From Fibrobacteria bacterium (lineage in GTDB: Bacteria; Fibrobacterota; Fibrobacteria; UBA11236; JADFYW01): a DNA stretch of 39,676 bases. The stretch is taken from the NCBI GenBank assembly GCA_015232855.1, contig JADFYW010000027.1, positions 1-39,676 of the forward strand, in the 5' to 3' direction. This document shows, piece after piece, positions 6,027 to 30,401 of the stretch (positions are counted from its first letter, which is position 1; the number at the start of each line of letters is the position of its first letter). The translations under genes and the position numbers were made by a program. The notes beneath the pieces are model-generated. The model ran no database searches, was not told where the DNA came from, and worked only from the letters and a program-made list of their open reading frames with translations.

Positions 6027-6225
6027 AATACGAAAAGGCAAAATATCTTTGTCTGCGTGGTAAAACTGTCTATTATATTTCTTAACCCGTTATTGTTCTT
6101 TTTCTTTTTAGGAAACTGGTGGATATTTAGTATCTGTCATTAAAAAAACATATTTAAAAGACAGAAGTTGCAATACCTTTAATTCTATATATAATAAGGT
6201 ATTACGTGAATTATAAGTTATATAT

Positions 6226-6288
6226 TGATGAAATAATGTTAAATATTACAAAAAACATATTGCCTTATTTGACGTTTCAGGGTATCAT
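6226..6288 (+). promoter_or_regulatory. Promoter A of TIGR02147 gene, with shared upstream motif
   Basis: The -35 box TTGCCT (6260-6265) and -10 box TATCAT (6283-6288) are 17 bp apart. The spacer ends in TTTCAGGG, so the 15-mer TTTCAGGGTATCATT (6275-6289) is identical to one at the same position before the other paired TIGR02147 gene. TGATGA at 6226-6231 occupies the place where the two related promoters carry a full TGATGACCA. The predicted leader is about 30 nt. The boxes are read by eye; the identity between promoters is directly visible. Confidence 0.65.
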
Positions 6289-7185: not shown

Positions 7186-7276
7186 AATTATGAATTATAA
7201 ATTACAAATTATGAATTACAAAGTGCCCGAAGGGTCATTTTTTAAATTCATCATTCATCATTCATTATTCATAATC
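7186..7276. repeat. AT-rich inverted/direct repeat element overlapping a lipoprotein start
   Basis: ATTATGAAT at 7187-7195 is inverted as ATTCATAAT at 7267-7275. The left part repeats ATGAATTA-like units and the right part repeats TTCATCA-like units, with P-E-G-coding sequence between. The element forms the first 29 codons of the lipoprotein gene, including much of its signal peptide (F-I-I-H-H-S-L-F-I-I). Similar AT-rich palindromes translated into such strings are familiar from other low-GC genomes. I infer a small non-autonomous repeat absorbed into the gene. Confidence 0.55.
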
Positions 7277-8905
7277 TTTGTGTTGGTTTTAATGCTATCT
7301 GGTTGTGGTATGGGTCAAGATACTGCAGGGACTGCTTCTGGTGGAGAGTCAATAGAAGTAGCGGGTATTATATCTGTAAACTCTGGTGCTCATATGACTA
7401 ATACTGTGGTAACTCTTTATCCAAAGACCTATAACCCTTATTTGGATGGTACGGTTCCTGATTCTTTGGTTGACACAACGGATGAAGAAGGGATATATCG
7501 TTTTGAAAACGTAGAAACTGGCAGTTATAACATAAAAGCGGTTAGTGCGAAAGGATTGATGTTAGCGTTAAAACAAGGTATTAATATAACCGAAAAAAAG
7601 GATACCACGATCACTCTTTCTGAAATGTTTTTGAAACCTCCGGGTAAAATAAACGTTTCTCTTCAGGAGGTAAGTGCGAAAGAAGGTGATTATGTTTGTC
7701 TTCCTGGTACTGGTGTTTCTGCACTTATAAATACTCAGAATGTAACTGAACAACTTGTTGCTGTGTCGGATGTACCTGTTGGAAGTTACCGGGAACTTGT
7801 ATATGGAGATAGTGTTGGTGCAAACCTTAATTTACTGGATAGTAGTCTGGAGGTAGTGTCAGATAGTCTTTCTGTTGTGGCCCCTTACCGGGCATGGAAC
7901 AAATCAAAGAAAATTATTATTAATACGAGTGTTTCAGGAGCTGATATAAAGGAAATGCTGGTTAATTATCCGCTGCTAGTACGTCTTGATTCATCTCATT
8001 TTTCTTTCAGTGATGCAAAAAGTGATGGTGGAGATATTCGTTTTTCTACTTCCGCGGGAAAGGTACTTCAATATGAAGTTGAATACTGGGACCTGGAGAA
8101 TAAAAAAGCAGAATTATGGATCCTTGTTGATACCATACTTGGGGATAATAGTGAACAGTTTATTACTATGCATTGGGATAATGCTACTGTTGCGGAAGGT
8201 GAAGATGGAGCTGCTGTTTTTGATACGGCCGATGGATTTACAGGAGTCTGGCATTTGGGTGAAACGGGGGCTACAGATTCAGATGGATTCAAAGATGCTA
8301 CAGCGAACGGAGATCATGGAACAGGTGTAAGTCTGGATATGAGTTCTTCTGGTTCGTCTGTTGTTGGTTCAGGCCAAACATTTGACGGTATTGATGATTA
8401 TGTTGACTTGGGCGAATCTCAGGGGCTTGATGGTGTTACTTCTTTTTCGGTGAGTTTCTGGTGTTTAGCTGATACAGTAGCTTTTTCCTCTTTTGCTGGT
8501 ATTTTGGCCCGGGGAACTGAGGAAAGATTGGGGGCACCTTATGTATATGGGGTTGTCGGTGACAGTAGTATAAGGATGACCTTTACAACTTTAGATGTTG
8601 AAGGTGATGGAGATGTTGTGACTGCCCCTCTTGAGCAAGGGAAATGGCATTATGTGTCTTTTACCTGGGATGGTAACGTTGTTACTGCTTATCTTGATGG
8701 GGTTCCTGGTGCAACAGATACTACTACGGGAACTGTTTTGCGGACTTCAGATGGAAATAACTGGATTGGCGCCATGCCCGGTTGGGGTAAATGGGATGGT
8801 AAGCTGGATGAAATGAGGATTTCTTCCCTGCCCCGTTCCGCTGATTGGGTTAAATTCTGTTATGAAACACAGAAGCCAGGAACCACTATTCTTAAGTTTA
8901 AGTAG
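7190..8905 (+). CDS. Surface lipoprotein: carboxypeptidase-regulatory-like, DUF2341 and LamG domains
   Basis: This is a 571-residue lipoprotein. The signal peptide ends in L-M-L-S-G-C, making Cys39 the probable lipidation site if ATG 7190 is used (ATG 7211 is an alternative). Domains: a carboxypeptidase-regulatory-like beta domain (about 55-160, with D-E-E-G-x-Y-R-F and G-S-Y-N-I-K-A); a middle beta region; DUF2341 (about 240-360, P-L-L-V-R-L-D, then V-W-H-L-G); and a LamG/concanavalin-like domain (about 365-571, F-D-G-I-D-D-Y-V-D-L-G, W-H-Y-V-S-F-T-W-D-G, L-D-E-M-R-I). LamG folds commonly bind glycans, so a surface glycan-binding or sensing role is inferred. It is the partner of the preceding regulator gene (11 bp gap, probably co-transcribed). 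No enzyme motif is seen. Part of its signal peptide is encoded by an AT-rich repeat. Confidence 0.85.
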   Translation: MNYKLQIMNYKVPEGSFFKFIIHHSLFIIFVLVLMLSGCGMGQDTAGTASGGESIEVAGIISVNSGAHMTNTVVTLYPKTYNPYLDGTVPDSLVDTTDEEGIYRFENVETGSYNIKAVSAKGLMLALKQGINITEKKDTTITLSEMFLKPPGKINVSLQEVSAKEGDYVCLPGTGVSALINTQNVTEQLVAVSDVPVGSYRELVYGDSVGANLNLLDSSLEVVSDSLSVVAPYRAWNKSKKIIINTSVSGADIKEMLVNYPLLVRLDSSHFSFSDAKSDGGDIRFSTSAGKVLQYEVEYWDLENKKAELWILVDTILGDNSEQFITMHWDNATVAEGEDGAAVFDTADGFTGVWHLGETGATDSDGFKDATANGDHGTGVSLDMSSSGSSVVGSGQTFDGIDDYVDLGESQGLDGVTSFSVSFWCLADTVAFSSFAGILARGTEERLGAPYVYGVVGDSSIRMTFTTLDVEGDGDVVTAPLEQGKWHYVSFTWDGNVVTAYLDGVPGATDTTTGTVLRTSDGNNWIGAMPGWGKWDGKLDEMRISSLPRSADWVKFCYETQKPGTTILKFK

Positions 8906-9084
8906 TGTTGAGAAGCGGGCTTTTTGTCAAGTCTCTGTGTTACCACAGTGTATCTGTTTTTACCTTTTAACTCACATTGCGCAAAATCTACAGGAGGTTG
9001 CGTAGTTTTTACAATAAAATTTTAATGTTTTAAAGGATCTTATTACGACTTGCTTAGTTGCTTATGCTTGAATTGAGGAAAAAA

Positions 9085-9888
9085 ATGTTTGTTTCTGTGT
9101 TTAATTATTCTGATTATCGTAAGTTTCTTGCTGATTTTTTTGATAACCAGCGTCAAAACGTTAACTCATTGAGTTTGAGGAGTATCTGCGATGATATTGG
9201 AATTAAATCTTCAAGGCACCTTACTTTGGTCTTAAAGGGTCAGTCTAATATTTCACAGAAATTAACCAATGTAATTACTGAATACTGCAAATTAAATGAG
9301 GGTGAATCAGTTTATTTTAAGACAATGGTTTTTTATAATCAGGCAAAAGGATTAAGCACTAAACGAATATTCTTTGAGAAGCTGTCCTCTTTTCCTGAAT
9401 CCTGTGTATATGGGGTGAGTAAACATAACTACAAATTTTATGATCGCTGGTATCATTCTGTTGTCCGTGCTATTACTGAATTTATGGATGTAAAGAATAA
9501 CTATGATCAGATTGCACAAATGCTAAGTCCTCCTGTTACAGCAAATGAAATTAAAAACTCACTGGAATTGCTTCTACAACTTGAACTGATATTTTTGGAT
9601 GACCGGGGTTTTTATCATCCCACCGTTAAAAGTACAGGTATAAATGAAAGTGTGCCTTATATGTCTCTGAATAATTTTGTAGCAGGCATGGTGACTAAAA
9701 CGCAGGGTAGTGTTGATGCATTGCCAGGTGAGAAACAGTTGTTGTCCTGGATAACTCGTTTTACTGAGATGACCCAACAAGCAAATGCTGATCAAGTCTT
9801 GTTTAAAAACCTGACATCGGATACTTCGGATTCTTATAATGCCGTTACTTCTGACCAGGAACAAGGCGAATATATCTGGTTTTGCTGA
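9085..9888 (+). CDS. TIGR02147 family protein, probable regulator with shortened C-terminus
   Basis: This is a paralogue of the gene at 6327. ATG 9085 is preferred: GAGG lies 7 bp upstream and the protein then starts directly at the family motif F-V-S-V-F-N-Y-S-D-Y-R-K-F-L-A-D-F-F. In-frame starts at 9058 (TTG) and 9064 would add only a short extension. The helix-turn-helix-like part (about 25-75, K-S-S-R-H-L-T-L-V-L-K-G-Q) and winged-helix-like part (about 145-190) are intact. After S-W-I-T-R-F-T the sequence leaves the family pattern: the usual ending with V-Y-Q-x-N-x-Q-x-F-P is replaced by an unrelated tail ending Y-I-W-F-C. This could be an old frameshift or C-terminal replacement. Unlike the other two copies it has no lipoprotein partner and lacks their promoter signature. 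Confidence 0.8.
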   Translation: MFVSVFNYSDYRKFLADFFDNQRQNVNSLSLRSICDDIGIKSSRHLTLVLKGQSNISQKLTNVITEYCKLNEGESVYFKTMVFYNQAKGLSTKRIFFEKLSSFPESCVYGVSKHNYKFYDRWYHSVVRAITEFMDVKNNYDQIAQMLSPPVTANEIKNSLELLLQLELIFLDDRGFYHPTVKSTGINESVPYMSLNNFVAGMVTKTQGSVDALPGEKQLLSWITRFTEMTQQANADQVLFKNLTSDTSDSYNAVTSDQEQGEYIWFC

Positions 9889-12636: not shown

Positions 12637-13183
12637 CCCGATCGAATAGTGTCCGTTGTATGAAAGATTATCTGTGGCAAGAAGACGAACGAGGCATACT
12701 TATACAGCTCTTGCGTTAGTAGGTCTACCAACAGAGGTGGCCAGATGAACCTGCTAAAACCTTTTGTGGTGGTTATTTGACCTAACGACCAAGGTGTTAA
12801 GCGGACTTGGCAGCTATGACCTGTCAGGGAAATATATTCAATATGATGGGTGCGGGACCACTCGATAAAATATGAGATGGATAATACGAAAACATGGACA
12901 TTTGTTCAATGGTCCTTTATTTTGGATAAAAGTTGACTGGATAGCTAATATAGATATTTAATAAAGTGAATTATAACAGTATAAAAACTAAAGAGTTAAG
13001 TGATAAATAATTGATTGAATAAAAAAAATACTATATAACCGAAAATGGATAGCTAAATTTTATTTTTTGGTCTATTATAGGATCAGTTATGATCTTATGG
13101 TATCAATATCCTAAGCACACAACAAACAACAGTTATACATGTGGTGGCATTATTCGCACATGGGTTTTTGGGAAGGGAAAATA
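12637..13183. other. Intergenic region with possible transposase and CTD relics
   Basis: No intact gene is present. A short frame reads V-Y-Q-Q-R-W-P-D-E (12723-12749), which fits the Y(2)R(3)E part of the IS4-type transposase signature but lacks the following Lys. Another frame (12815-12865) reads Y-D-L-S-G-K-Y-I-Q, like a sorting-domain core. Both are interrupted by stops. An 11 bp direct repeat TGGATAGCTAA occurs at 12938-12948 and 13046-13056, in the probable promoter zone of the next gene. Confidence 0.4.
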
Positions 13184-14698
13184 ATGTTTAGAATATTTTA
13201 TTTTTGTTTTTTAACGGTCACGGCCTTTAGTGCCTCTGAAAACGGTAAATTCACTGTTGCTTTTTGGGGAGACTCCCGGGGTAACGGCGGCCAGGCTACT
13301 GAAGAAATTGCCGGTTATTTAGTTGAAGAAAAGGGAAAAACTATTGATGCCCACATTCAAAATGGTGATTTCACCTATGATGGCACCTCAAGTGACTGGG
13401 TTCGTGCCTGGGGTATTAAGAATATTAAGGAGGCATGTGTAAAAGACTATTTTTATATGTCCACCAGTAACCACGACATTGGTTCTTCTTATCAGGGGGA
13501 AATGGCAGACTTCTTACCCAGTAATGGCTCAAACGTCTTTTATTATCATAAATCCTGGCCTATACCCGGCACTCTGCGCAAGGTCCACCTTTTAGCATTT
13601 GATTTGTATTATAAACAGGATACGGATGCGCAAATCAACTATTTCAAAGACAAACTAAAAGATGCCAGTCCGGATGACTGGATATTGGCGCTCTGGCATT
13701 CGCCCAGTTTTAACCGCATGACCTATAAAAATGAACAGTTCGGGCAAAAAATGGACTTTGTTAAATATGTGGCTTCAGCCGAGACAGGAGGGGATTTTGT
13801 GCTGAATGGTCATGCCCATGTGTTTGTTCGTTCTCATGTGCTGGATGCAGAGGGTAATAGAGTTGAAATTTCAGATAGCCGTCATCATACCTCACCAGAC
13901 AGTTCAGCCGGTTTAGTACATATTGTTAATGGCCGCGGAGGACAGTTTGACTATAATGAGAATTCACCCTGGGAGAACAATGTATTTCAGCCTGATTTGG
14001 GAAAAACTCCTGATGGTTTGGTTACCTTAATGGAATTTGATGATAATACGGTTCATCTCAATACAGTGAAAATCGGAAGTGACTATTTGGTCTTTGACAC
14101 GCTGGATACCTGGTCCTGGACCAGAGGTGCTCCCATGGCTCTTAGTTCGGATACAACCGCACCGGTTGTGACGGTTGATGTATTGAAGACTAATAAAACC
14201 ACTCCCGGGCTTACCGGAACTATCGATGACCCCACTGCTACCATCACTATTGACCTGGATGGTCAGCAATATACCGCTGTTAATAATGGTGACGGGACAT
14301 GGGCTCTTGCAGATAACCTTATAACTCCTTTAACTGATAATATATATGATGTTAAAGTGACGGCTGTTGATACAGCCGGTAATATTGGGAATGATATAAG
14401 TACTAATGAATTGGTTAGTGCAGAATTTTCTGTTGATTGGCATTCCCATATGACACCCTTGGATTTTGATGCTATACCGGTTTATGCTGATGGTAATGGT
14501 ATACACATTGAAATTCCTATTGATGTTAGTTTTTCCATTAATATCATCGATGTGTATGGTAGTGTTTTAGAATCATTTTCGGGTTCTCGCCGTGGAGAAC
14601 GTAATTGGAATAATACAACAAATGTTTCAGGTGTATTTTATGTTATTGTGAATATGGCCGGAAAGAGTTTCTTCCGTAAGGTCATGTTAATTAAATAG
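13184..14698 (+). CDS. Secreted calcineurin-like metallophosphoesterase with Ig-like and sorting domains
   Basis: This 504-residue protein starts at ATG 13184, which follows GGGAAGGGA by about 6 bp and begins a signal peptide; ATG 13139 would add 15 residues. The binuclear metal motifs of calcineurin-like phosphoesterases are present in order: G-D-S-R-G (Asp30), Q-N-G-D, S-N-H-D, L-W-H-S and G-H-A-H. It should cleave phosphomono- or diesters outside the cell. An Ig-like beta domain follows (about 325-410, P-G-L-T-G-T-I-D-D, D-G-T-W), then a sorting domain (about 430-504) ending F-F-R-K-V-M-L-I-K. It sits downstream of the nucleoside-hydrolase-like gene but has its own 547 bp upstream region, so co-transcription is unlikely. 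Confidence 0.83.
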   Translation: MFRIFYFCFLTVTAFSASENGKFTVAFWGDSRGNGGQATEEIAGYLVEEKGKTIDAHIQNGDFTYDGTSSDWVRAWGIKNIKEACVKDYFYMSTSNHDIGSSYQGEMADFLPSNGSNVFYYHKSWPIPGTLRKVHLLAFDLYYKQDTDAQINYFKDKLKDASPDDWILALWHSPSFNRMTYKNEQFGQKMDFVKYVASAETGGDFVLNGHAHVFVRSHVLDAEGNRVEISDSRHHTSPDSSAGLVHIVNGRGGQFDYNENSPWENNVFQPDLGKTPDGLVTLMEFDDNTVHLNTVKIGSDYLVFDTLDTWSWTRGAPMALSSDTTAPVVTVDVLKTNKTTPGLTGTIDDPTATITIDLDGQQYTAVNNGDGTWALADNLITPLTDNIYDVKVTAVDTAGNIGNDISTNELVSAEFSVDWHSHMTPLDFDAIPVYADGNGIHIEIPIDVSFSINIIDVYGSVLESFSGSRRGERNWNNTTNVSGVFYVIVNMAGKSFFRKVMLIK

Positions 14699-18945: not shown

Positions 18946-20931
18946 TTAATATACCGGGATTTTGAGTGTATTATAAGCACCTTTTTCAGATACTACTTCC
19001 AAAATGTATATGCCGGGTTTAAACTTAGCTGGTAGTAGAAATTGTCCAAAATCCTTTTTCGATGCCGTTAAGATGTTCTCTCCTTTTACATTTCTGATGG
19101 TTAGATAAAACGTTCCGGGAATTGTAATGGTAATGTTCCGGTTAAAGAATGTTATACTATTGCGGATTTGTGGGGATAAAGAAGGTATACTCAAGCCGGA
19201 ATCTGGCCAGGAGTAATATTCAAAAGCATCAACGATTACATAGGTACCGGTACTGGAAGCAGACTTTGTCCCTTTGACTTCCACTTTCATGGTGTGTTCT
19301 CCCGGAGCCAGAATAGGGCTTTCATACAGTTTTGTCTGGTACTGGGTAGAGGAACTATAGCAGTCCACATCTTCTTGTAATACCCCATCGATATAAATGG
19401 AAACGTATCCCAAATCATTTCGTTTTTGACCGATGAAAGAAGCCCGGATACCGGAAAAAGTGAATTCCACTGATTCTTGTGGGGTATTTGAAAAATAGCA
19501 GGCCCCTTTATAATACGAGGAGTTTTGATACGCTGTCCAGTTTGCAGAAGCTTTTACTGGCGGGTCAAGTTCATCTACTTTTACAGCTTCAGAAGGCATT
19601 GCAGTAAATGAAACCTTATTGCTGCTACCCGGCGAACCGGAAGTAATTGCCTTTATCTGGTACAGGTAGGCTTCACCTAATATTGCAGATGTATCTGTAA
19701 AAGCGAGTGTTTTCGAGTCCGCAATATGTTTATTGTCCCGGTATATCTCAAAATGGTCAAGAGAATCGCCAGAGATAGTCGTTTCCCAACGAAGTTCTAC
19801 CTGTGGGTTATCATTCCTTATTTTAAGGACCGGTGTTTGCAATGTTACGCCAGATACGGGTGTTTCGGATGCATCACCGGTTAAAGGGTTGTAGTAATTT
19901 GTCCATTCAAGGTAATAATCGCCCTGTGCATTTTTTTTGAGCGGCAACATCCGGTATCTGGATGTGTTAATGTCTTTACCCTCTCCCCATATCCAGTCGT
20001 CCAGAAGGCCAAAACAGGTGTTTGTCTCTTTTATATAAACGAACTCGGTGATTTGTCCCCATGACTCTCCATTTGACATAGACTTTTTCGCACTATAGGG
20101 GCCCAGGGGGTTGTCAGCCCAGGCACCGGTGACTTCGGTGTTAGACCAGCCCTCAAGGTCGGAACCGGCAACAACATATTTACCCAGAAATTTGACCATG
20201 GCTGGCGCTTCATGGGCGGAGGTTACCGCTTTTACCACTTCACCAGTTACATTGAGGTAGTCCGGTGTTAGTTTGTCTACCCGTAAGTTAAAGACCCTGT
20301 CGTTGTATACGCCATAACCGGTGCCGTCATCATCCTTAAATAAATTGCAGTCCTGAGAACCCCCGGCTGACACATTTATCTGGACAAGATCATCGAAGGG
20401 GCCGGTTGGACTATCTGCTACTGCCCGGGAATACATTTGTTGTTGTGTGGTGCCAAAAAAATGAAAAAAATACATGACATATTTTTTGGTACTGTCGTTA
20501 TAAATAACATGGGGACGGTGGATAGAGCCCTGGGACGTCCAGCCTGTGTCCCGTATGGCAAAGGCAACACCTTCGTGTTTCCAATTTACCAGGTCGGTGG
20601 AACTGTAAATATTAAAGGGGTTCATTAAATCATGGCTTTTATCGCCATACCATCCATCAGGATTGCCTTCATAATTAGAACCGTACCAGTAGAAAGTATC
20701 TCCAAAACGGGAAATGCCGCCGTCATGGGCAGAGATGGGGTTACCTTCGGTGTCATACCAGGTATCGTTATTGTCAACATATCCGCTTGAGAAGGCAGAG
20801 GACAGGAAAATCAGGCATAAAAAGTATATATAGGAAAAGGAAAAGTTGTATAAAGAAAAATGTCGCATACTACGACCTGACTTTTTTTGCAACGCTTCTT
20901 TCACCGTACATTGTGCAGATGAGCGAGACAT
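18946..20931 (-). CDS. Secreted GH43 glycosidase with Fn3, jelly-roll-like module and sorting domain
   Basis: This is a 661-residue protein. The GH43 five-bladed propeller (about 50-350) has W-Y-D-T-E-G-N-P-I-S-A-H-D-G-G-I near its start and F-Y-W-Y-G-S, which resembles the exo-beta-1,3-galactanase-type subfamilies (usual motif A-H-G-G-G; here the second position is Asp). E-A-P-A-M-V-K marks the probable acid block. Then come a Fn3-like domain (about 365-445), the ~125-residue module shared with three other genes here (about 450-577, ending V-D-A-F-E-Y) and a sorting domain. ATG 20931 follows an excellent GGAGAAGGGGGA; ATG 20868 is a weaker alternative giving a shorter n-region. It is the last gene of the minus-strand cassette, 113 bp after the EEP gene. 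Arabinogalactan-type substrate is a guess from the subfamily. Confidence 0.82.
   Translation of the reverse strand: MSRSSAQCTVKEALQKKSGRSMRHFSLYNFSFSYIYFLCLIFLSSAFSSGYVDNNDTWYDTEGNPISAHDGGISRFGDTFYWYGSNYEGNPDGWYGDKSHDLMNPFNIYSSTDLVNWKHEGVAFAIRDTGWTSQGSIHRPHVIYNDSTKKYVMYFFHFFGTTQQQMYSRAVADSPTGPFDDLVQINVSAGGSQDCNLFKDDDGTGYGVYNDRVFNLRVDKLTPDYLNVTGEVVKAVTSAHEAPAMVKFLGKYVVAGSDLEGWSNTEVTGAWADNPLGPYSAKKSMSNGESWGQITEFVYIKETNTCFGLLDDWIWGEGKDINTSRYRMLPLKKNAQGDYYLEWTNYYNPLTGDASETPVSGVTLQTPVLKIRNDNPQVELRWETTISGDSLDHFEIYRDNKHIADSKTLAFTDTSAILGEAYLYQIKAITSGSPGSSNKVSFTAMPSEAVKVDELDPPVKASANWTAYQNSSYYKGACYFSNTPQESVEFTFSGIRASFIGQKRNDLGYVSIYIDGVLQEDVDCYSSSTQYQTKLYESPILAPGEHTMKVEVKGTKSASSTGTYVIVDAFEYYSWPDSGLSIPSLSPQIRNSITFFNRNITITIPGTFYLTIRNVKGENILTASKKDFGQFLLPAKFKPGIYILEVVSEKGAYNTLKIPVY
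19200..19580 (-). other. Shared jelly-roll-like module, copy 1 (in GH43)
   Basis: This is one of four copies in the window of a ~125-residue domain with the pattern Y-Y-K-G-x-C-Y, S-x-E-F-T-F-x-G, Y-I-D-G-x-x-Q-E-D-V-D-C-Y, G-E-H-T-x-K-V-E-V-K-G-T-K and V-D-A-F-E-Y. Domains of this type are common at the ends of secreted glycosidases and are probably carbohydrate-binding. Confidence 0.7.
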
Positions 20932-21044
20932 ATTATTCCCCCTTCTCCAATATCTTTTCTATTCTATAATAGCCGAAAAGGCCTGAATTCCCAATGGCTT
21001 TTTGGGGAAAAATGAGCGTTTTCAGCAAAAATAACCGCTTAAAT

Positions 21045-22808
21045 TCAATTCTCTGTACTGAAACGAAGAATATACAAGTTAGCGTTTGTTCCAGTGATAG
21101 CCTGTATGTCAATGACTGGTTCTTTTGTATTGAATTTGCATATAATAGAGCCTTTCAGTGTATAAATAGCCACAGATTTGTTTTCATCTTTGATATACTC
21201 TGGAAAGGTAAATGTGCGGCCTGGTGTTATATGTATACCGGAAGTGGATAGGCTGCTGAGATGTCCGGGAGATGCTTCTATAGCCGTAACAGAATCCGGC
21301 CAGGGTAAATACTCGAATGCATCCACTACCAGTAGCGTACTGGAACTCAAACTATTTTTAGTTCCTTTTACTTCGATTTTTACGGTATGTTCACCAGCCT
21401 GCAGTATTTCACTTTTATAAAGGAGTGCTTGTAATTCATTTTTTGCACTGTAACAGTCAATATCCTGTTTCCATTGGCCGTCAATAGAAATTGATGCCAG
21501 TCCCATATCGGAACGCAGCTCACCAATAACAGATACCTGAATACCATGAAAGGTAAATTCTACAGACTCCCCGGTTATTGCCGAGTAAAAACATCCACCT
21601 TTATAATATCCGGAATCATCCCAAGGAGTCCAGCCATTTGTCTTGGTTACTTGCTGGTCCCGTTCATCGACTTTTTCAAAACCATAGGGTGTCGCTATTA
21701 CATCTATTTTTCCACTGATATCTAAAGTATCTGTCGTATCACCCATAACCAGAATTTGGTATGTATAAGACTCTCCTAATTCTGAGGTAAGATCTGAGAA
21801 TCCGATAGATTGGCTGGTTGCTAGGTATTCGCCGTCCCGCAAAATAGTGTAAAATTCTATTGAGTCAGTAGATGTAGTGACGTTCCAGCTAAGATTAACT
21901 CTGGATTGATTTGTTATACTGGCTTGCAGGCTATCAATCATAGGAGGCCGCAGCTTGATGGTAGCAACAAGGGGCCAATGGTCTGATTCATCCATATTTG
22001 GATTATCATAGGGTACATGAGACTCTATGAAGCTATACCCGTCTTTTAAAAAGACATAATCTATCTGCCAGAGTTTACCGGGCGGGCGATGACAACAGTC
22101 GTCTACCGTGTATAATTCCTCTCCCATAAAATCTATACCGGAATCCATCCAGCCATCATCGGTGAACTTTTTGTGATTTGTGGGTTCTGAGCGTGGCGAA
22201 AAATTCATATCTCCTATAACTATTTTTAAACCATTGTACTGGTTCATAAACCCAAGCATGTTATCTATTTTTCCTGCTTTTTTTTCTACACTATTAGCTG
22301 AAAATAGATGAGACTGAAAAAAATGTACATCTTGTCCGGGATTAGGCTGGACGGTCGTCCTGACTAAAAAATTTATATCGCCAATATTATCTTCACTTTT
22401 TGATATGATTGGGTATTTACTAAGCATCAGCAGCCCCCCTGTGGTGTTCAGGTAAGTAAATGCTTGCGGGAAGTATTCTGAATACATAGGATAATTGTGG
22501 GTGTCGAGATAATTAATGATGTAGGTAACCCAATCAGTATCAACGCCTCCAGGGCCGCCGTAACTGTGAACGACCTCTCCCATGCCGACCAGGTCTGCCT
22601 GCTCATCAATAAGACCTTCACAGATTTGATCGAGCTGACTATTTTCCCAGTTTAGGGTATTCCAGGCACCGATATTCCAGGTGATGACTTTAAGCTTGGT
22701 AACCGCTGCTTGGGATGAAAAGGGAAACAAAAACAGGAAACACAAAATAATGACGGTTTTGTACAAGCAATGAATATTCCATGCTTTGCGTAACGAAAAA
22801 AATGTCAT
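21045..22808 (-). CDS. Secreted EEP-family phosphoesterase/nuclease-like protein with Fn3, jelly-roll and sorting domains
   Basis: This 587-residue protein starts at ATG 22808 (AAAGGGT about 7 bp upstream) with a signal peptide. The endonuclease/exonuclease/phosphatase domain (about 35-290) has the diagnostic T-W-N-I, L-V-G-M-G-E-V, S-H-L-F, G-D-M-N-F-S-P (near 198) and S-D-H-W-P-L (near 275). A C-C-H-R-P-P-G-K-L-W-Q-I-D-Y block replaces the usual loop before the Asp of I-D-Y and is specific to this pair of paralogues. Fn3-like, shared jelly-roll and sorting domains follow. The family cleaves phosphodiesters of DNA, sphingomyelin or phosphoinositides; the substrate here is unknown. It is co-transcribed with the upstream alpha/beta hydrolase fusion (11 bp gap). 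Its closest relative here is the gene at 30478-32181. Confidence 0.83.
   Translation of the reverse strand: MTFFSLRKAWNIHCLYKTVIILCFLFLFPFSSQAAVTKLKVITWNIGAWNTLNWENSQLDQICEGLIDEQADLVGMGEVVHSYGGPGGVDTDWVTYIINYLDTHNYPMYSEYFPQAFTYLNTTGGLLMLSKYPIISKSEDNIGDINFLVRTTVQPNPGQDVHFFQSHLFSANSVEKKAGKIDNMLGFMNQYNGLKIVIGDMNFSPRSEPTNHKKFTDDGWMDSGIDFMGEELYTVDDCCHRPPGKLWQIDYVFLKDGYSFIESHVPYDNPNMDESDHWPLVATIKLRPPMIDSLQASITNQSRVNLSWNVTTSTDSIEFYTILRDGEYLATSQSIGFSDLTSELGESYTYQILVMGDTTDTLDISGKIDVIATPYGFEKVDERDQQVTKTNGWTPWDDSGYYKGGCFYSAITGESVEFTFHGIQVSVIGELRSDMGLASISIDGQWKQDIDCYSAKNELQALLYKSEILQAGEHTVKIEVKGTKNSLSSSTLLVVDAFEYLPWPDSVTAIEASPGHLSSLSTSGIHITPGRTFTFPEYIKDENKSVAIYTLKGSIICKFNTKEPVIDIQAITGTNANLYILRFSTEN
21296..21676 (-). 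other. Shared jelly-roll-like module, copy 2 (in EEP protein)
   Basis: This is the second copy of the four-fold module described at 19200. It has Y-Y-K-G-G-C-F-Y-S, S-V-E-F-T-F-H-G and V-V-D-A-F-E-Y-L-P-W-P-D-S. Confidence 0.7.
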
Positions 22809-22819
22809 ATTATTACCCT

Positions 22820-25021
22820 TTATAAAGAAGATAGCTTAAAAAACTTATGGGTATAGATTTTCCTTTTCGTTGTTATTTGGATAACGTACATACCGGTAGT
22901 AAATTTAGTTGAAGCAATAGTAAAAGATTCTCTGTTCAGTGCAAATTCTTTAAGAAATGTCCTACCTGATATATCCATTATTTTGAATTCATATGGTACT
23001 TTAAGTTCTACTGAAAACTGGATATCTCCATTTAACATGTTTTTCTGGTGAACAGGTGTTTTAATATTGTCCTTATCCAGAGGTTTCACTTCTCCGCGGG
23101 TACTTACCAGAGTGTCTTTCGTAAAATTAACCAGTATATGGTTCGTTACTTCTGTCATACCTCTGGCGTACGTTTCCATATCAGTTTCTATATGGAAGCG
23201 CATTACCCTTTTTGAAGAGTCCGTTTTGCCGTAGGTAATAGTGGAATTGGGGTGAATATTTACATCCACCGGATAAAATTTGAATAACGGTGATTTTGGA
23301 GCTGAACTATACACGCCTTTAGGAATGGAAAAATATTTTCCATTTCCAAGATGTATTTTTCTATCCGCCAAATAAGAAATTAATGCACCGGCCCAAAAGT
23401 CTTTTTTTTGTGTATACCAGGCGGCCATATATGGTTCATTAACATCAGATTCCAAAAATGCAATGGGATCCTCTGTACTTTCCTGAAACATATAACTGAT
23501 AAACTGCACTATTCCTGATGGGGCTCCTTTCATAATTTCACCATAGGTTGCGTTCCAGTAAGAAGAGTTTCCGTTATTCTTCCATGGTCCTCCATCCCAA
23601 TCCGGAACCCAATAAAACGGGATTTCTGATTTCATAATGGTAATGTATGCTTTAGGGTCAAGATTAGTGTTCCATTCAAGTATATTACTGTTGGCGTCAC
23701 CAATAAGACTGAGAAGACGCTTTATTTTGCGTTTGCATAAATCGGGATTTCGGTTATAAGCAGCAGCTACGTCACGAAGGCTACCCAGGGTAAGGATTGA
23801 AACTGAAGAATCTTCTTCTCCTTCAAGAGTCTTCAAAATCATTTCAGGACCTTGTTGATATTTTTCATCCTGGTCAAGGCCTTTATCCTCCGGTGATTTT
23901 AAAAAATTGCGAAGGCCAATATAGTATGGCACCTTTCTGCCACTTAAATAGTTGATTTGGGAGACAGGGATGGAGCCGGGATAGTCTTCCTGGCTTTTGG
24001 TGGTATTATCAAGAATAATAACTTTTATATCAAATTCACTCATGCCAAAGGTAGTGGCAATGTCAAAATGGTCATCAGGATCATCATGGGGGTGCCAGAG
24101 GTCTGAGCAATAAATCAAAGGTTCCCTGTTTTTTAAAGCAAAGGGCTTTTGTTTTGAAAAGCTGAAGAGCCAGTCGGCCTGGCCTGAAAATTCATTAAGG
24201 TAAGATGACCAGAGATCATGGGTGCCATCTTCATATTCAGAGTATATATGGCGGGGTGGATGATTGGAAACAATGTTTGCTTCTACATCAGCTTTGGGCA
24301 AACCTGTACAGTTTTCAGTATTACAATTGGTATAGAAGATATCATGGCCTAAAGTGTCCAGGGTCAGCATCATATTGCGTGTTCCGGAAACAGGAATAAC
24401 TGTGTCATCTTTACCATGTTGCCCCCAGATAGCCATATGCTGGACTAAATGCATTTTAGCAGGATCACCAGCACCGCATACCGCAATGGCAGCGGCAAAT
24501 GTATTTGGGTACCGGGTTATAATGTCCCAGGTACCAAATCCTCCCATGGATTGCCCCAAAGCATATAATCTCTCTGTGTCTATGGAATAAACCTGTATTA
24601 TGGAATCTAACATATCTTTAACGGTTATCAGCTCGTTTGATTGAGGGATTGCATCCTGATTATAATTTCCCAGCGTCCAGTCATAATCAACCCATCGTTG
24701 GTCGAGAGGACATTGTGGAGCAAGGATAAAAGCCGGGTGCCTGCTCTGTATAGAATCAGAAGAAAAAAAATGAATAGTTGGATCATCTTTTATTTGAAGG
24801 ATATTATCGTTACCCCGCCAACTCGCTCCATGTAAGTGAAGAATCAAGGGGTACGAATGGGAAGGATTATAATTTTTTGGTAGTAAGAGACGAAAGGGAA
24901 GACTCGTTCCATTATGATAATGGCTTCCCGGAATAAATTTTTCCAGAACCTGCGTACTGGAATCAGTAGCGGCTAAACTTACAGAAACCAGGAACAAAAA
25001 TAGGATTTTATAATACATCAT
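22820..25021 (-). CDS. Secreted fusion of alpha/beta hydrolase esterase and nucleoside-hydrolase-like domain
   Basis: This 733-residue exported protein fuses two enzyme folds. The N-terminal alpha/beta hydrolase (about 25-300; CE1/S9-like) has the oxyanion segment L-H-L-H-G-A, nucleophile Ser158 in G-Q-S-M-G-G, acid Asp in G-K-D-D-T-V-I-P and His in G-T-H-D-L-W. After D-W-L-F-S-F-S-K it switches to a nucleoside-hydrolase-like domain (about 305-620) with an Asp-rich start (H-D-D-P-D-D-H-F-D), L-T-L-G-S-L-R-D-V-A and R-L-L-S-L-I-G-D. A sorting domain ends the protein. Its paralogue at 34112-35647 has the same esterase domain but carries the jelly-roll module instead. It is followed at 11 bp by the EEP gene, and 265 bp separates it from the upstream glycosidase gene, so a private promoter is possible. 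Confidence 0.8.
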   Translation of the reverse strand: MMYYKILFLFLVSVSLAATDSSTQVLEKFIPGSHYHNGTSLPFRLLLPKNYNPSHSYPLILHLHGASWRGNDNILQIKDDPTIHFFSSDSIQSRHPAFILAPQCPLDQRWVDYDWTLGNYNQDAIPQSNELITVKDMLDSIIQVYSIDTERLYALGQSMGGFGTWDIITRYPNTFAAAIAVCGAGDPAKMHLVQHMAIWGQHGKDDTVIPVSGTRNMMLTLDTLGHDIFYTNCNTENCTGLPKADVEANIVSNHPPRHIYSEYEDGTHDLWSSYLNEFSGQADWLFSFSKQKPFALKNREPLIYCSDLWHPHDDPDDHFDIATTFGMSEFDIKVIILDNTTKSQEDYPGSIPVSQINYLSGRKVPYYIGLRNFLKSPEDKGLDQDEKYQQGPEMILKTLEGEEDSSVSILTLGSLRDVAAAYNRNPDLCKRKIKRLLSLIGDANSNILEWNTNLDPKAYITIMKSEIPFYWVPDWDGGPWKNNGNSSYWNATYGEIMKGAPSGIVQFISYMFQESTEDPIAFLESDVNEPYMAAWYTQKKDFWAGALISYLADRKIHLGNGKYFSIPKGVYSSAPKSPLFKFYPVDVNIHPNSTITYGKTDSSKRVMRFHIETDMETYARGMTEVTNHILVNFTKDTLVSTRGEVKPLDKDNIKTPVHQKNMLNGDIQFSVELKVPYEFKIMDISGRTFLKEFALNRESFTIASTKFTTGMYVIQITTKRKIYTHKFFKLSSL

Positions 25022-25286: not shown

Positions 25287-27101
25287 TTAATAAAGAATTA
25301 CTTTTTTTTCTGTGGATCGGTGTTTGTTTATAATGTGGAGAAAATATACCCCACTGGCCTGTCCGGAAAGATCTATGGGTACAACCGTTGAGTTTATTTT
25401 ATTCTTGTAAATGAGTTCACCTGAATTTTTGAATACGGTAATGCTCCCATTATGCCACTCAGAATTCTCAAAAACGACTGAAAATATACGGTTATGCGCA
25501 GGATTTGTTATAATACTCAGTCCTGTCGGGGTTATGGCAGAATTTTGTTTTATCACACTTATACCACCATTGGCAATTTGTGAAATGGGGGTACTCTTTG
25601 TCGACTCATGCCATTCCGCATTCACTGCAGATACTGTATAGTTGTATTCGTCATCTTCACTCAGTCCGGAATCTGAATAAGATAATTCTCTGGTTTGTGA
25701 AATTTCTACGCCGTTTCGGAATATCCGATAAAACCTGATTGCTGATTCAGTGTCGGTAGAAGCTTCCCATGTAATATCTATAATGGACTTACTTTTGGAA
25801 TCAGCCTTGATATTTTTTGGGATGCTAGGTGGGGTATTGTCGGTGAGTATAATAAAAAGTTCTCCTCCTCCTTCCTCCAGTGCTGCTGATGTGGTGTTGC
25901 CGGAAATTGTTTGTGGTGTCATCTCACCTGTCGTTCTGCTGAATTTCCCAAGTCCTTTTATGCTTTGGTTGAGGGATAAGGTAAAAGTCCTTGCAGCAGT
26001 ATTTTCCCGGTTTGCCAGGAAGATGTAATAACAGCCCCAAATATCCCAAAGTTCGCCGATAACAGCCTGTCCGCCGGAAACCGCTGTCACCAAATCAGTT
26101 CCGGTTATTCCCCTCGCATTAGAGGGAACCGGAGCGCTGTGATACACCTTGGATGATTTTAAACTTTTTAACATCGGGGCGAGTGTTTGTACCTCCCCAT
26201 TAATTTTCTGGGCATAATACCATTTATGATTTTTTTCATTAGTATTTAAATCTACAAGAGCGTTACCATAATCTCCCCAGGTTTCCGAGGCCCAGTAGGA
26301 AAAATATTCCAGACCTTTGCCGCCATACGCTAATGTGGTATATACTTGCCATCTTAAATCGCCTTCCGTAGGCTCTCGGTAAACACCTCCATGTCCGACA
26401 CTCAGTGGACAGTTCCAGAATGGAATATTATGGAGAAGAGCATAATTGCGGATAATTTCCATATTTTTGAAATGTTTATTATTGTCGGTCTTACCATCGG
26501 AGTAAAGCGAATAACAATCGTAACTTAATACTTTTGGTTTCACTGTTTCTATGAAACTGCTTACATACTCATCATAGCTCGAAGCACCCAGCTGTTTTGA
26601 ACTGGCCCAATAGGGTAATAGATTTACAAAGGGAAGCCTATCCGGATCCAATTCTTCAATTAATCTGGCACAGTAGGCGAGTTCAGGGAACCATTCAGCG
26701 TTTGGTTCATCTGACAAAAGGTAACCAAACAGAGAAGAGTGGTCTTTGTTTTCAGCGACAACCTTTCTTATAATAGGATCCAATTCGGCAATGGTGTAGG
26801 TGTAATAAAAATTACTGTATACCATACCCTGGATGCCAACCTTTTTGCACAAATCCAGATCCTGTGTGGTAACTCCCATATCCACCGAAGACCATTGAGC
26901 GACAGTAAAATTCGCATCCGCCACTTCCTGGTATTTTTCCAGAGTGACCGGTGGCCCGCCCCAGTAGGTGATGATTATTTCATCTTCCCAGGTGCCTTTG
27001 GCATGTAGTATTGATGGTGCAAGGTAAATGCAAAGCAGAAGTGTATAAAACAGAATGCCCGGCTTAATGAATATTGATTTTATATAAGTATTGTACATCA
27101 T
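25287..27101 (-). CDS. Secreted TIM-barrel glycosidase-like protein with Fn3 and sorting domain
   Basis: This 604-residue protein is not assignable by eye to a numbered GH family. A signal peptide is followed by a barrel-like domain (about 33-330) beginning E-I-I-I-T-Y-W-G-G-P-P. It contains L-S-D-E-P-N-A-E-W (candidate acid/base Glu near 132) and G-K-G-L-E-Y-F-S-Y-W (candidate nucleophile Glu near 262), arranged like retaining GH-A enzymes. A small beta domain, a Fn3 domain (about 430-510) and a sorting domain ending K-K-V-I-L-Y follow. It is a close paralogue of the gene at 32227-34050; the 3' ends of the two genes are almost identical in DNA. The promoter's -10 box lies only 6 bp before the ATG, so the transcript may be leaderless. 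It is the first gene of the minus-strand cassette. Confidence 0.75.
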   Translation of the reverse strand: MMYNTYIKSIFIKPGILFYTLLLCIYLAPSILHAKGTWEDEIIITYWGGPPVTLEKYQEVADANFTVAQWSSVDMGVTTQDLDLCKKVGIQGMVYSNFYYTYTIAELDPIIRKVVAENKDHSSLFGYLLSDEPNAEWFPELAYCARLIEELDPDRLPFVNLLPYWASSKQLGASSYDEYVSSFIETVKPKVLSYDCYSLYSDGKTDNNKHFKNMEIIRNYALLHNIPFWNCPLSVGHGGVYREPTEGDLRWQVYTTLAYGGKGLEYFSYWASETWGDYGNALVDLNTNEKNHKWYYAQKINGEVQTLAPMLKSLKSSKVYHSAPVPSNARGITGTDLVTAVSGGQAVIGELWDIWGCYYIFLANRENTAARTFTLSLNQSIKGLGKFSRTTGEMTPQTISGNTTSAALEEGGGELFIILTDNTPPSIPKNIKADSKSKSIIDITWEASTDTESAIRFYRIFRNGVEISQTRELSYSDSGLSEDDEYNYTVSAVNAEWHESTKSTPISQIANGGISVIKQNSAITPTGLSIITNPAHNRIFSVVFENSEWHNGSITVFKNSGELIYKNKINSTVVPIDLSGQASGVYFLHIINKHRSTEKKVILY

Positions 27102-27107
27102 ACTTTA

Positions 27108-27170
27108 ATAATATCCTGAATTCTGAAAAAAGCAAGCTAAACTTAAAAATAGTTTTATAAATGGTCATCA
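27108..27170 (-). promoter_or_regulatory. Promoter C of the glycosidase cassette
   Basis: On the minus strand, TTGCTT (27135-27130) and TATTAT (27113-27108) are 16 bp apart, with TTCAGGA directly before the -10 box, as in the two TIGR02147 promoters. TGATGACCA (27170-27162) ends 26 bp upstream of the -35 box. The start codon is at 27101, so the expected transcription start falls on or beside the ATG and no ribosome binding site is visible. Confidence 0.6.
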
Positions 27171-27288
27171 TATTCTTATTTGGAAAGAAGATTTGTTTGG
27201 TGTAAAACCTTATAAATGTATAATAATGAGGTTTATTGGAAAAAAAGCACTTGGCTTTTGTGTTTATGATTATAATAGGAACAATAAA

Positions 27289-27297
27289 TGGTCATCA
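27289..27297 (-). promoter_or_regulatory. Distal TGATGACCA motif of promoter C
   Basis: This is the second exact copy of the motif, 127 bp upstream of the proximal copy, in the same orientation. Confidence 0.5.
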
Positions 27298-27408
27298 TTT
27301 GTTTGCTGCTGAAGCTAAGAAATCAAATATATGGGAAATAATTAAAATTGAGTGAATTTCTGGATTGGTTAGACTATAACCAGAGCTATTTAGTGAAATT
27401 GTTTTTGT

Positions 27409-29160
27409 TTATTTGAATTGAACGACAGATGAACCTTGTTTCTGGCATTCGTAGTCCAGCTTTATCCAGGCTTCAGAAACCGCAGTCTGTTTTACTCTGA
27501 CTTCATCCATAATACCATTGAAATAGGGGTTGGTTGGCCCGTTTTCCCAGTAGGTGTTATACCCGCCTCCAATTTTCCAAAATCCTGAAAAATTCTCAGC
27601 CTGTTTTACTGTTGAGTCTCTTACTATTAGCGTTCCATCGATATACAAACTTTGTCCTTCTGTGGGTGATAGTGTTGCTACTACCTGATGCCAGTTTCCG
27701 TCATTATATTTTTCAGGAGTAGAAATAGCTCTGCGAATGCCCGGGCTTTTCCCAGTGGAATCGGCTGGGCCGATTAAAAGTGAATCTTCGGATGAAATTG
27801 AATCGGGTTCAGGAGGGAATACGCCGAAATTGAGATGGCCAGAGTCACCCATAAATATTAATCGGTCATTACTGTATAATACAGACTCAAGAGAGTCTCT
27901 CTCAAAGGTGATAAGTCTACCGCCTGCTATGTCTGTTTTTAGCCAGAGAGAAAGAGAAAATACAGAGGGATTGTCAAATCTTTTAGGGGTGATAAGTCTT
28001 TGATTTATTCCATTAAAATAAAGTGCAGAACCAATTAAACCCGGAATGGAGTTTCCGGCTATTTGCTCCAGGGGAATAGCATTGTTTTCTGCAGTACTTG
28101 CGTCATTAACCCGGGTAGAAGAAACAGAATCGAAATGCCAGACACCGGCGTATTGGGTTGACGAATCAAAAGTAACAGACTCGTCGGAACGATCTGTTGC
28201 ATTGGTGTTACCGGTATATAAATGAATGGATTGTGTGTTGTTGTTACCATATACGGTATCCAGTTTAACCCAAACGTGGGCTATTCCACTTTCTTTGTTC
28301 CACTGTTCGATTTCATAGGGTAAAGGTTTGTCATGAGTGTTTGTGATACGAAGATCTGAACCATCAGGTTGAGCACAACTAAAAAGTGAATGTGCAGCAA
28401 AACTGCTGGATGTATCCAGGCGAAGTAACAATGGGAAGTTGGTAACATGTTCTTGAATGTTTGCACCGGTAGCCTTTGTGTTGATAGTGCCTGTGATATG
28501 ACATTCCCACTGGTAATATCTGCTGATATGAATGGTGCTATCAGACAACACAGTAATATTTTCAAAAACAGTGGTTGTGGTGTCGGTTTCCCGGTTTTTG
28601 GAAAATCGGATGTCCTGGTAAATGGCTGCTGGGACGGAGTTCAGTTCAATTGTTTTGTTCTTGAGCCCGGCACTGTCAATATGTACGCTCACATCGGTAC
28701 CGGGAATGTAAAAGTAGGCGTCTGGAATGTTTAGAGAATCAGGTATGGTAACTTTAATGGTACCAGATTTTTTTAGGATTGTTGTGTCTACCTGAATGAG
28801 CTTGTTGAGGTCGGTAGTGTTAACCAAAAGGTTCTGTAGTAATGAAGATAAGGGCTTATCCGGGTGTCGTGTTACAATGTTGTATGAACCTGATGTGATG
28901 TTTGGTAAACGATATGTTCCCTGTTCATCTGTTAGCGTTTGCCATGTTTCAGGTAAGGAGTCTTCCTGGTAGGCCTGATAATTATCCGGATAGAGTGATA
29001 CGCGTGCGTTCTGAATAATCTCACCATTTTCATTAACAATAACGCCTGCTATGGTGTTTCCATTGCCTGTTTCGGAACCACCTCCGGCAATATTTTCAGA
29101 ACAATGCCAGAATATAAAGCAGGCACTCAGATATAAAAATATGCAGCTGGCTTTTTTCAT
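27409..29160 (-). CDS. Surface lipoprotein: carboxypeptidase-regulatory-like, DUF2341 and LamG domains (second copy)
   Basis: This 583-residue protein has the same architecture as the lipoprotein at 7190. The signal peptide ends F-I-F-W-H-C, so Cys20 may be lipidated, but His at the position before it is atypical for a lipobox. A Ser/Gly-rich linker is followed by a carboxypeptidase-regulatory-like domain (about 35-130, D-E-Q-G-T-Y-R-L, G-S-Y-N-I-V), DUF2341 (about 220-345, P-L-L-L-R-L-D, V-W-H-F-D) and LamG (about 355-583, W-H-Q-V-V-A-T-L, M-D-E-V-R-V). The ATG overlaps the stop of the regulator gene (ATGA, 29157-29160), so the two are translationally coupled. A surface glycan-binding or sensing role is inferred from LamG and from the fixed pairing with TIGR02147. 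Confidence 0.83.
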   Translation of the reverse strand: MKKASCIFLYLSACFIFWHCSENIAGGGSETGNGNTIAGVIVNENGEIIQNARVSLYPDNYQAYQEDSLPETWQTLTDEQGTYRLPNITSGSYNIVTRHPDKPLSSLLQNLLVNTTDLNKLIQVDTTILKKSGTIKVTIPDSLNIPDAYFYIPGTDVSVHIDSAGLKNKTIELNSVPAAIYQDIRFSKNRETDTTTTVFENITVLSDSTIHISRYYQWECHITGTINTKATGANIQEHVTNFPLLLRLDTSSSFAAHSLFSCAQPDGSDLRITNTHDKPLPYEIEQWNKESGIAHVWVKLDTVYGNNNTQSIHLYTGNTNATDRSDESVTFDSSTQYAGVWHFDSVSSTRVNDASTAENNAIPLEQIAGNSIPGLIGSALYFNGINQRLITPKRFDNPSVFSLSLWLKTDIAGGRLITFERDSLESVLYSNDRLIFMGDSGHLNFGVFPPEPDSISSEDSLLIGPADSTGKSPGIRRAISTPEKYNDGNWHQVVATLSPTEGQSLYIDGTLIVRDSTVKQAENFSGFWKIGGGYNTYWENGPTNPYFNGIMDEVRVKQTAVSEAWIKLDYECQKQGSSVVQFK

Positions 29161-30017
29161 TTTTGCCGGCCTTTATTAATTTTAGAAACGGGAAATGTTT
29201 GGAAATTCATTTGATATACGCAATTTGCCTGGTCATCTTTACTGGCCAGGTCAAGGCAATCAGAACGAAACTGCCGGAGTCTTTTAATAATTTCCACCAT
29301 GGTTGTAGAAGATAGACTCAGGGTCAGTGTAGAAAAATCCCGTGCTTCACTGGAATATTTTTCAAAGGCTGCTTTGGCCAGTTCCATATTTCCCAGCTGA
29401 TAGTTGGCAATGGCAACAGAGGTCCATCCTTCTCCGGTGGAAATGACCGGATCTGATTTTGTGTAATAACCGGATTTGTCTTTTTTGATTAATTGTAACT
29501 TTTCTAAAACCCGAATAGCTTTTTTGGCTTCATAGGCCCTTATGGGTGGCTCAAGTTGTCTGGCAAGAGTGGCAAAATCGTCTTTGAACTTGAAGTAATC
29601 CAGTATTTCGCGTACCACCGTATAATACCATTTATCGTAAAATTCGTAATGACGGTAGTCCAGTATTCTTGTTTTTTTCTTTCGGAGACGGGTTAACCGA
29701 TCGAGCAATTCCTTTTTCTTAACGGAAGCCCTGGTTTTATCAAATTGTAACAGTAATTTTAAATAGTGGAGTTCGCTTTTGTTTAGTTGCAGGATTGCAG
29801 CTAATCCCGGAATGAACTTGTCTGTAAGTGACTTTTTTCCCTGAATTACCCGGATGAGAAACGCTGAATCACACCCTAACTCATTTGCCATTGCTCTTTT
29901 GGAATATCTGGTTCCGGTGGAGCTTTTGGCATCAATCCAATCAGAAATGAATTTTCGATAGTCCAGATAATCGAAAATATCCGGGAAGGTGGGCTGATGC
30001 GTATTTTGTTGCTTCAA
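29157..30017 (-). CDS. TIGR02147 family protein, probable DNA-binding regulator (second paired copy)
   Basis: This 286-residue family member carries F-D-Y-L-D-Y-R-K-F-I-S-D-W near its N-terminus. A clear helix-turn-helix-like segment lies at about 38-70 (S-K-R-A-M-A-N-E-L-G-C-D-S-A-F-L-I-R-V) and a winged-helix-like segment at about 160-195 (E-A-K-K-A-I-R-V-L-E-K-L-Q-L-I). The start is TTG at 30017 with AGGT a few bases upstream; no ATG precedes the conserved domain. Its C-terminus keeps the family ending (V-Y-Q-M-N-F-Q-T-F-P-V-S-K). It overlaps the lipoprotein gene by 4 bp. It has the same promoter as the copy at 6327, plus two TGATGACCA motifs upstream, which suggests autoregulation or a common controller. 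Confidence 0.86.
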   Translation of the reverse strand: MKQQNTHQPTFPDIFDYLDYRKFISDWIDAKSSTGTRYSKRAMANELGCDSAFLIRVIQGKKSLTDKFIPGLAAILQLNKSELHYLKLLLQFDKTRASVKKKELLDRLTRLRKKKTRILDYRHYEFYDKWYYTVVREILDYFKFKDDFATLARQLEPPIRAYEAKKAIRVLEKLQLIKKDKSGYYTKSDPVISTGEGWTSVAIANYQLGNMELAKAAFEKYSSEARDFSTLTLSLSSTTMVEIIKRLRQFRSDCLDLASKDDQANCVYQMNFQTFPVSKINKGRQK

Positions 30018-30053
30018 AATTACCTGATGGGATTTGAGAACTGTTTTGATTAA

Positions 30054-30118
30054 ATGATACCCTGAAAATGTACAAAAAGCAAGTAGATTTTAAACTATTG
30101 TTAAAAATATGGTCATCA
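30054..30118 (-). promoter_or_regulatory. Promoter B of the second regulator-lipoprotein operon
   Basis: On the minus strand, TTGCTT (30082-30077) and TATCAT (30059-30054) are 17 bp apart, and TTTCAGGGTATCATT (30067-30053) is identical to the sequence in promoter A. TGATGACCA (30118-30110) ends 27 bp before the -35 box. The predicted leader is about 30 nt. Confidence 0.65.
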
Positions 30119-30205: not shown

Positions 30206-30214
30206 TGGTCATCG
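30206..30214 (-). promoter_or_regulatory. Distal TGATGACCA-type motif of promoter B
   Basis: CGATGACCA on the minus strand lies 96 bp upstream of the proximal motif and differs from it by one base. It is preceded by CCAAATAA, as is the proximal motif of promoter C. Confidence 0.5.
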
Positions 30215-30401
30215 TTTATTTGGGGGGCAAAAAATACACAAAGCTCAACGCAAAGGTAGCCATTGTGTTGAATCGTGTTTAGTATGTATTTACGGTAAAA
30301 AATATTTGAATATTTCAGGTCCTGAGTATTGGGATTCTATGATAAAAAGAAAAACTCCGGAACGGATATGTTGAGGAAGTGTAACGCTTCTGCCGGGAAT
30401 C

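Follow-up and report, generated by a model that had tools for sequence, protein, structure and literature searches.

Three promoters in the window (the whole analysed stretch of DNA, 39,676 nucleotides) raise a key question: are the operons that they precede read by one common activator, or are the sites upstream of them more local in use? The window corresponds to contig C199 of a draft genome of 5.38 Mb (350 contigs, ~80% complete). An earlier note on this DNA had described promoters A, B and C as sharing TTGCYT, a spacer of 16-17 bp and TATYAT with TTCAGGR abutting the -10 box, and had proposed a single activator for all three, plausibly a TIGR02147 protein. All of these core elements are present at the three positions (Table 1): promoter A reads TTGCCT-N17-TATCAT, promoter B TTGCTT-N17-TATCAT and promoter C TTGCTT-N16-TATTAT, each with TTCAGGR abutting the -10 box. 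The described gene content also agrees with the family and domain matches, A and B being followed by a regulator and lipoprotein pair and C by an enzyme cassette.

Table 1 Features of operons A, B and C in the window
Feature	Position	Strand	Basis or remark
Candidate low-complexity repeat AAAAAACATATT of A, distal copy	6143-6154	+	repeat test
A TGATGA, partial match, probably a different operator	6226-6231	+	sequence
A own repeat AAAAAACATATT, proximal copy	6250-6261	+	repeat test; overlaps the -35 box
A core promoter TTGCCT ... TTCAGGG TATCAT	6260-6288	+	sequence
A regulator, TIGR02147 protein outside the clade of the B regulator	6327-7178	+	234 bits
A lipoprotein partner (DUF2341, LamG)	7190-8905	+	domain matches
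Remaining cassette C	18946-25021	-	putative operon membership, from strand and spacing
Cassette C, GH43	18946-20931	-	
Cassette C, endo/exonuclease/phosphatase fold	21045-22808	-	
Cassette C, esterase / nucleoside-hydrolase-like	22820-25021	-	
Cassette C, first gene, 604 aa, fn3 and T9SS sorting domain	25287-27101	-	profile matches
C TTCAGGA and -10 box TATTAT	27108-27120	-	sequence
C -35 box TTGCTT	27130-27135	-	sequence
C proximal operator copy TGATGACCA	27162-27170	-	sequence
C distal operator copy TGATGACCA	27289-27297	-	extends to CAAACAAATGATGACCA, 27289-27305
B lipoprotein (CarboxypepD_reg, DUF2341, LamG)	27409-29160	-	domain matches
B regulator, TIGR02147 protein, TTG start	29157-30017	-	NCBIfam 252 bits vs cut-off 50; DUF4423
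B TTCAGGG and -10 box TATCAT	30054-30066	-	sequence
B -35 box TTGCTT	30077-30082	-	sequence
B proximal operator copy TGATGACCA	30110-30118	-	sequence
B distal operator copy CGATGACCA	30206-30214	-	extends to CAAATAAACGATGACCA, 30206-30222

Core promoters of TIGR02147 genes

By curated NCBIfam score, the regulators of A and B and the product of a third gene, which follows the A pair (9058-9888, + strand, 170 bits), are all members of the TIGR02147 / DUF4423 (PF14394) family of Fibrobacterota. The family is large and paralogous within this one genome, with 48 matches, 46 of which score higher than the 50-bit curated cut-off. A gene lies close behind the TIGR02147 gene in 38 of 40 intact cases examined; it mostly encodes a lipoprotein and its start overlaps the regulator gene by a few bases (4 bases at B), and a simple rule revealed a lipobox in 31 of these downstream genes.

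The motif TTCAGGRTATNAT (TTCAGGR-TATNAT) occurs 11 times in the genome, compared with 3 occurrences of the reversed control. Outside open reading frames it is restricted to four sites, namely A, B, C and C133:8563, the last directly upstream of another TIGR02147 gene; all four are at TIGR02147 loci. In addition, TTC (5-7 bases before the -10 box) and G (2 bases before it) are enriched across 40 TIGR02147 upstream regions, and the same enrichment was not found in 121 control upstream regions. The TTGC / TTCAGGR-TATNAT core is thus a feature that loosely characterises promoters of the TIGR02147 type, and not an operator. The likeness of A, B and C in this part is typical of such promoters and gives no proof of a common activator. 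A wide promoter class defined by TTGC...TTCAGG was also considered and rejected, because its genome matches fall mostly inside open reading frames. Many predicted -10 boxes of the TIGR02147 genes of this genome lie just 7-25 bases before the start codon, which suggests that the leaders of many of these genes are very short.

Sites upstream of B and C

A specific element at a nearly fixed distance upstream of the -35 box had been described for all three promoters, at A as TGATGA only; the description of a specific shared element holds for B and C, and A has the partial match. At B and C, TGATGACCA ends 27 and 26 bp upstream of the -35 box, respectively, and a second copy is present farther upstream in both regions (Table 1). 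Measured from the -10 box, the proximal copies lie ~60 bp and the distal copies 155-185 bp upstream (-59 and -155 at B), and the two are separated by 96 bp at B and 127 bp at C. Pattern searches covered the whole genome, with the reversed word as the control for word counts. The composite TGATGACCA-N20..32-TTGCYT was found at B and C only. The extended distal site CAAAYAAAYGATGACCA is likewise free of mismatches only at B and C. The bare word YGATGACCA tells little, as it occurs 74 times in the genome compared with 54 times for the reversed control. A genome-wide TGATGACCA regulon was rejected because the composite is confined to these two promoters.

Could the resemblance of B and C be a chance match or the remnant of an old promoter duplication, with no function? 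Spurious repeats are frequent in AT-rich upstream DNA. In 4000 dinucleotide shuffles, any 9-mer common to B and C at a matching offset appeared 98 times, and the full pattern, in which a second copy is present in both promoters, appeared 6 times. Nevertheless, such an origin seems very improbable: the composite is unique in the genome, four copies are found in two promoters, the spacings differ (see above), and the layout recurs at other loci. Moreover, B and C are little alike outside the listed elements, which counts against a recent promoter duplication. Our preferred reading, to which we assign a probability of about 70%, is that TGATGACCA serves as the private operator of B's own TIGR02147 protein, which would control its own operon and the adjacent cassette C.

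The upstream region of A

At A, the hexamer TGATGA is in frame with a 9-mer that would end 25 bp upstream of the -35 box, but the CCA that completes the word at B and C does not follow, and no second motif copy was found upstream. The same operator word is thus not found at all three promoters. The shuffle frequency of TGATGA within 5 offsets is 0.001, a value uncorrected for the choice of the motif after B and C had been seen. This match, together with the same core promoter, is what speaks for one TIGR02147 activator controlling A, B and C via a common element, with a degenerate site at A. We consider such a shared activator improbable, as the CCA and the second copy are missing, the A regulator belongs to another clade and is only 29% identical to that of B, and the core resemblance is common to other TIGR02147 promoters. 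In addition, A has a repeat of its own, the 12-bp AAAAAACATATT, whose two copies are 107 bp apart. The proposal of one activator for the three operons is therefore not upheld. A search for an operator common to the members of the clade of the A regulator gave none.

Several minor features were observed around A. An inverted repeat, AATACCTT/AAGGTATT, was spotted by eye upstream of A. The product of the third TIGR02147 gene (9058-9888) departs from the family in its C-terminal part, with the profile match ending at position 224 of 272, and no lipoprotein gene follows directly downstream; this gene may be degenerate. In the region 12938-13139 (+ strand), upstream of gene 13139-14698, TGGATAGCTAA is present at -93 and again at -201, a distance of 108 bp, and the same upstream region has GTGAATTATAA in common with that of A. 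It is possible, judging by these words, that gene 13139-14698 is a target of the A regulator or of the 9058 regulator.

Repeated upstream words in the TIGR02147 family

These results lead to another question: is the two-copy arrangement of B peculiar to this locus, or does it recur among the paralogs? In the repeat test, the proximal and distal upstream windows of one gene were compared, and windows paired across genes served as the null. This test and the word tests covered ~0.66 Mb around TIGR02147 genes. Values above the 90th percentile of the null were obtained for 17 of 36 TIGR02147 genes and for 16 of 115 control genes (Fisher p=1e-4). The controls that passed include C as well as L047-5824, L107+12667 and L109+5909, three genes that adjoin TIGR02147 genes and whose words resemble those of the adjacent regulators; the contrast is thus understated, if anything. 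The separation between copies was 75-122 bp in 13 of the 17 TIGR02147 cases, compared with 36% in the null. The geometry is like that of B, and the repeated word differs from paralog to paralog; for instance, AAGTGTTATCAAAA is present twice, 86 bp apart, and is found in exact form nowhere else in the genome, and TGGTGAAAAAT is present twice, 84 bp apart. For approximately half of the TIGR02147 genes, no clear upstream repeat was detected by this test. Helical phasing of the two-copy sites was rejected, as by inspection the separations have no common phase. A further repeat was seen upstream of an ATPase-like gene located close to a TIGR02147 gene (L027+2758): AACTATAGATTTAGC occurs there twice, 106 bp apart (-53 and -159), and this word matches that of no regulator.

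Words shared with neighbouring operons

Pairs of a regulator and another gene on the same contig whose upstream regions share words above the 99th percentile of the null numbered 9, while 2.6 were expected. The clearest shared words were an exact 20-bp word on contig C140, a 21-bp word with one mismatch on C40 and a 23-bp word with two mismatches on C350, together with those of C7 and C17. The neighbours involved mostly start with an apparent signal peptide, as judged by eye. The 21-mer of C40 has three mismatch-free copies in the genome, all on C40, and its reversed control has none. One copy lies before a secreted-protein gene, one before the regulator, and one between the lipoprotein gene and the following operon, which is truncated where the contig ends; this gene order mirrors that of B and C. 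For the C350 word, too, exact copies are found on its own contig only.

Comparison with related genomes

Conservation of the putative operators was assessed in six related, GC-rich genomes of the same order (G004-G009); among the genomes searched, none besides that of the window belongs to the same family. TIGR02147 ortholog groups in G004-G009 keep group-specific upstream words, which are doubled in several groups at B-like positions. Examples include GTTTAGTAA at -144 and -36, GCTTAC at -157 and -58, and TTGGCAA at -146 and -55 from the -10 box. In the relatives, the repeat test applied to one member per group was weakly positive, so the support from these genomes comes from words that the members of an ortholog group have kept. 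Upstream of the genes of one ortholog group (L116, L131, L153, L168 and L185, from G004-G008), repeats similar to GAGCGAAGCGCTTCCGG occur in runs and have the look of a dispersed repeat element; these were excluded from the word test.

The strongest case of an apparently conserved operator crosses families and links the regulators L010 and L011 of the window's genome with the group L130/L154/L190 of another family (f2), to which they are 56-60% identical. Two copies of GGTGAA are found only at L010 and L011 among 37 genes of the window's genome, and two copies of TGGTGAA only at L130/L154/L190 among 92 genes. At L011 and in the f2 group, the distal copies lie between -154 and -168 and the proximal ones between -70 and -82; at L010, the proximal copy is inverted and lies at -59. 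A weaker case is that of L014, whose word CGTTGA recurs, doubled or inverted, in the groups L129/L186 and L127/L175/L114/L066. For B itself, no ortholog above 46% identity was found, a scan of the genome contigs with the B protein gave no match, and TGATGACCA is absent upstream of the nearest relatives of B in G004-G009 (<=46% identical, GC-rich genomes); the B operator is thus without a phylogenetic footprint.

These comparisons bear on the identity of the binding protein. The genome encodes many other regulators, and TGATGACCA could be read by another transcription factor encoded elsewhere, with the B TIGR02147 protein merely one of its targets. We regard this as unlikely, since the composite occurs only at the operon that encodes the regulator and at the adjacent one, the words of C40 and C350 are similarly local, and related TIGR02147 proteins of different families have retained related operators. 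A TIGR02147 protein as the reader of the B/C element, the part of the earlier proposal that concerns these two promoters, thus remains the best candidate, and the protein encoded in B would be the direct binder of TGATGACCA.

Proposed mechanism and relation to known systems

In the proposed mechanism, the B protein, for which an XRE-type DNA-binding domain is predicted at the N terminus, followed by DUF4423 at the C terminus, would bind two copies in the same orientation ahead of its own promoter (about -70 and about -165, counted from the expected start) as well as the same pair of sites ahead of the neighbouring cassette C. In this way it would couple its own operon, encoding the regulator and a surface lipoprotein, to secreted enzymes. 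We infer activation rather than repression at B and C; a proximal site centred near -67 and a non-consensus -10 box suit an upstream-acting activator. Sites lie nearer the promoter in some relatives, and repression is thus possible at other members. The signal reaching the B regulator would perhaps be linked to the lipoprotein.

The predicted DNA-binding domain was assessed by profile and structure comparisons. HTH_3 was found in 3 of 19 TIGR02147 members, with a weak best E value of 0.0011; the profile matches, with E near 0.01, are weak as well, among them that to 9sf2_A (E 0.0075). An AlphaFold model built from three window sequences had a mean pLDDT of 57 and was usable in its N-terminal part only; with this part, the top Foldseek matches were mostly XRE domains, although weak, with E above 0.05. 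Taken together, these profiles and the model weakly suggest that TIGR02147 proteins bind DNA.

Autoregulation via nearby operators is typical of XRE / HTH_3 regulators (lambda-repressor-like proteins, SinR and restriction-modification controller proteins), to which the likeness consists of the weak profile and Foldseek matches. TIGR02147 proteins differ from them in that DUF4423 follows and the Foldseek E values are high; moreover, the sites described here lie well upstream, in two copies ~75-127 bp apart, and not over the promoter. In the polysaccharide utilisation loci of Bacteroidota, the local regulators are SusR, hybrid two-component systems and ECF sigma / anti-sigma pairs. Similar to these, TIGR02147 genes are present as many paralogs per genome, beside secreted enzymes and a surface lipoprotein, and would control their neighbours. 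Unlike them, TIGR02147 is an unrelated protein family, and neither a membrane-spanning sensor nor a SusC/D pair was identified in the regulator operon.

The library entry for TIGR02147 names it as the second paralogous family of Fibrobacter succinogenes and assigns no function, and a search of freely available journal papers gave no mention of it. The sole paper found for DUF4423 reports a Bdellovibrio protein that is raised during growth in prey (PMC12546842). In the F. succinogenes genome paper, cellulase regulation is called unanswered, with a handful of recognisable regulators nearby (PMC3079729). Relative to the TIGR02147 annotation, the private operators and neighbouring targets proposed here are new.

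B-C would then be one case of a layout present in many TIGR02147 paralogs, in which the word differs and is sometimes reused at a neighbouring operon. We lean towards the broader view, somewhat less firmly than for B-C itself, that TIGR02147 is a large family of local regulators, with dozens per genome, private operator words in a two-site layout, and a surface lipoprotein paired with a secreted-protein operon next to it. The operator would be readable from neighbouring DNA and would follow the regulator across families of Fibrobacterota. If true, this would provide a function for the unassigned family and make regulator-target pairs predictable directly from sequence, and the B-C pair suggests how these bacteria may control secreted enzymes.

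The lipoproteins encoded after TIGR02147 genes of this genome also have a common feature: many of them share an AGGG-ETTNGISG-like stretch after the lipobox cysteine. In the lipoproteins of the window, this stretch is followed by CarboxypepD_reg, DUF2341 and LamG domains, and the partner family is uniform.
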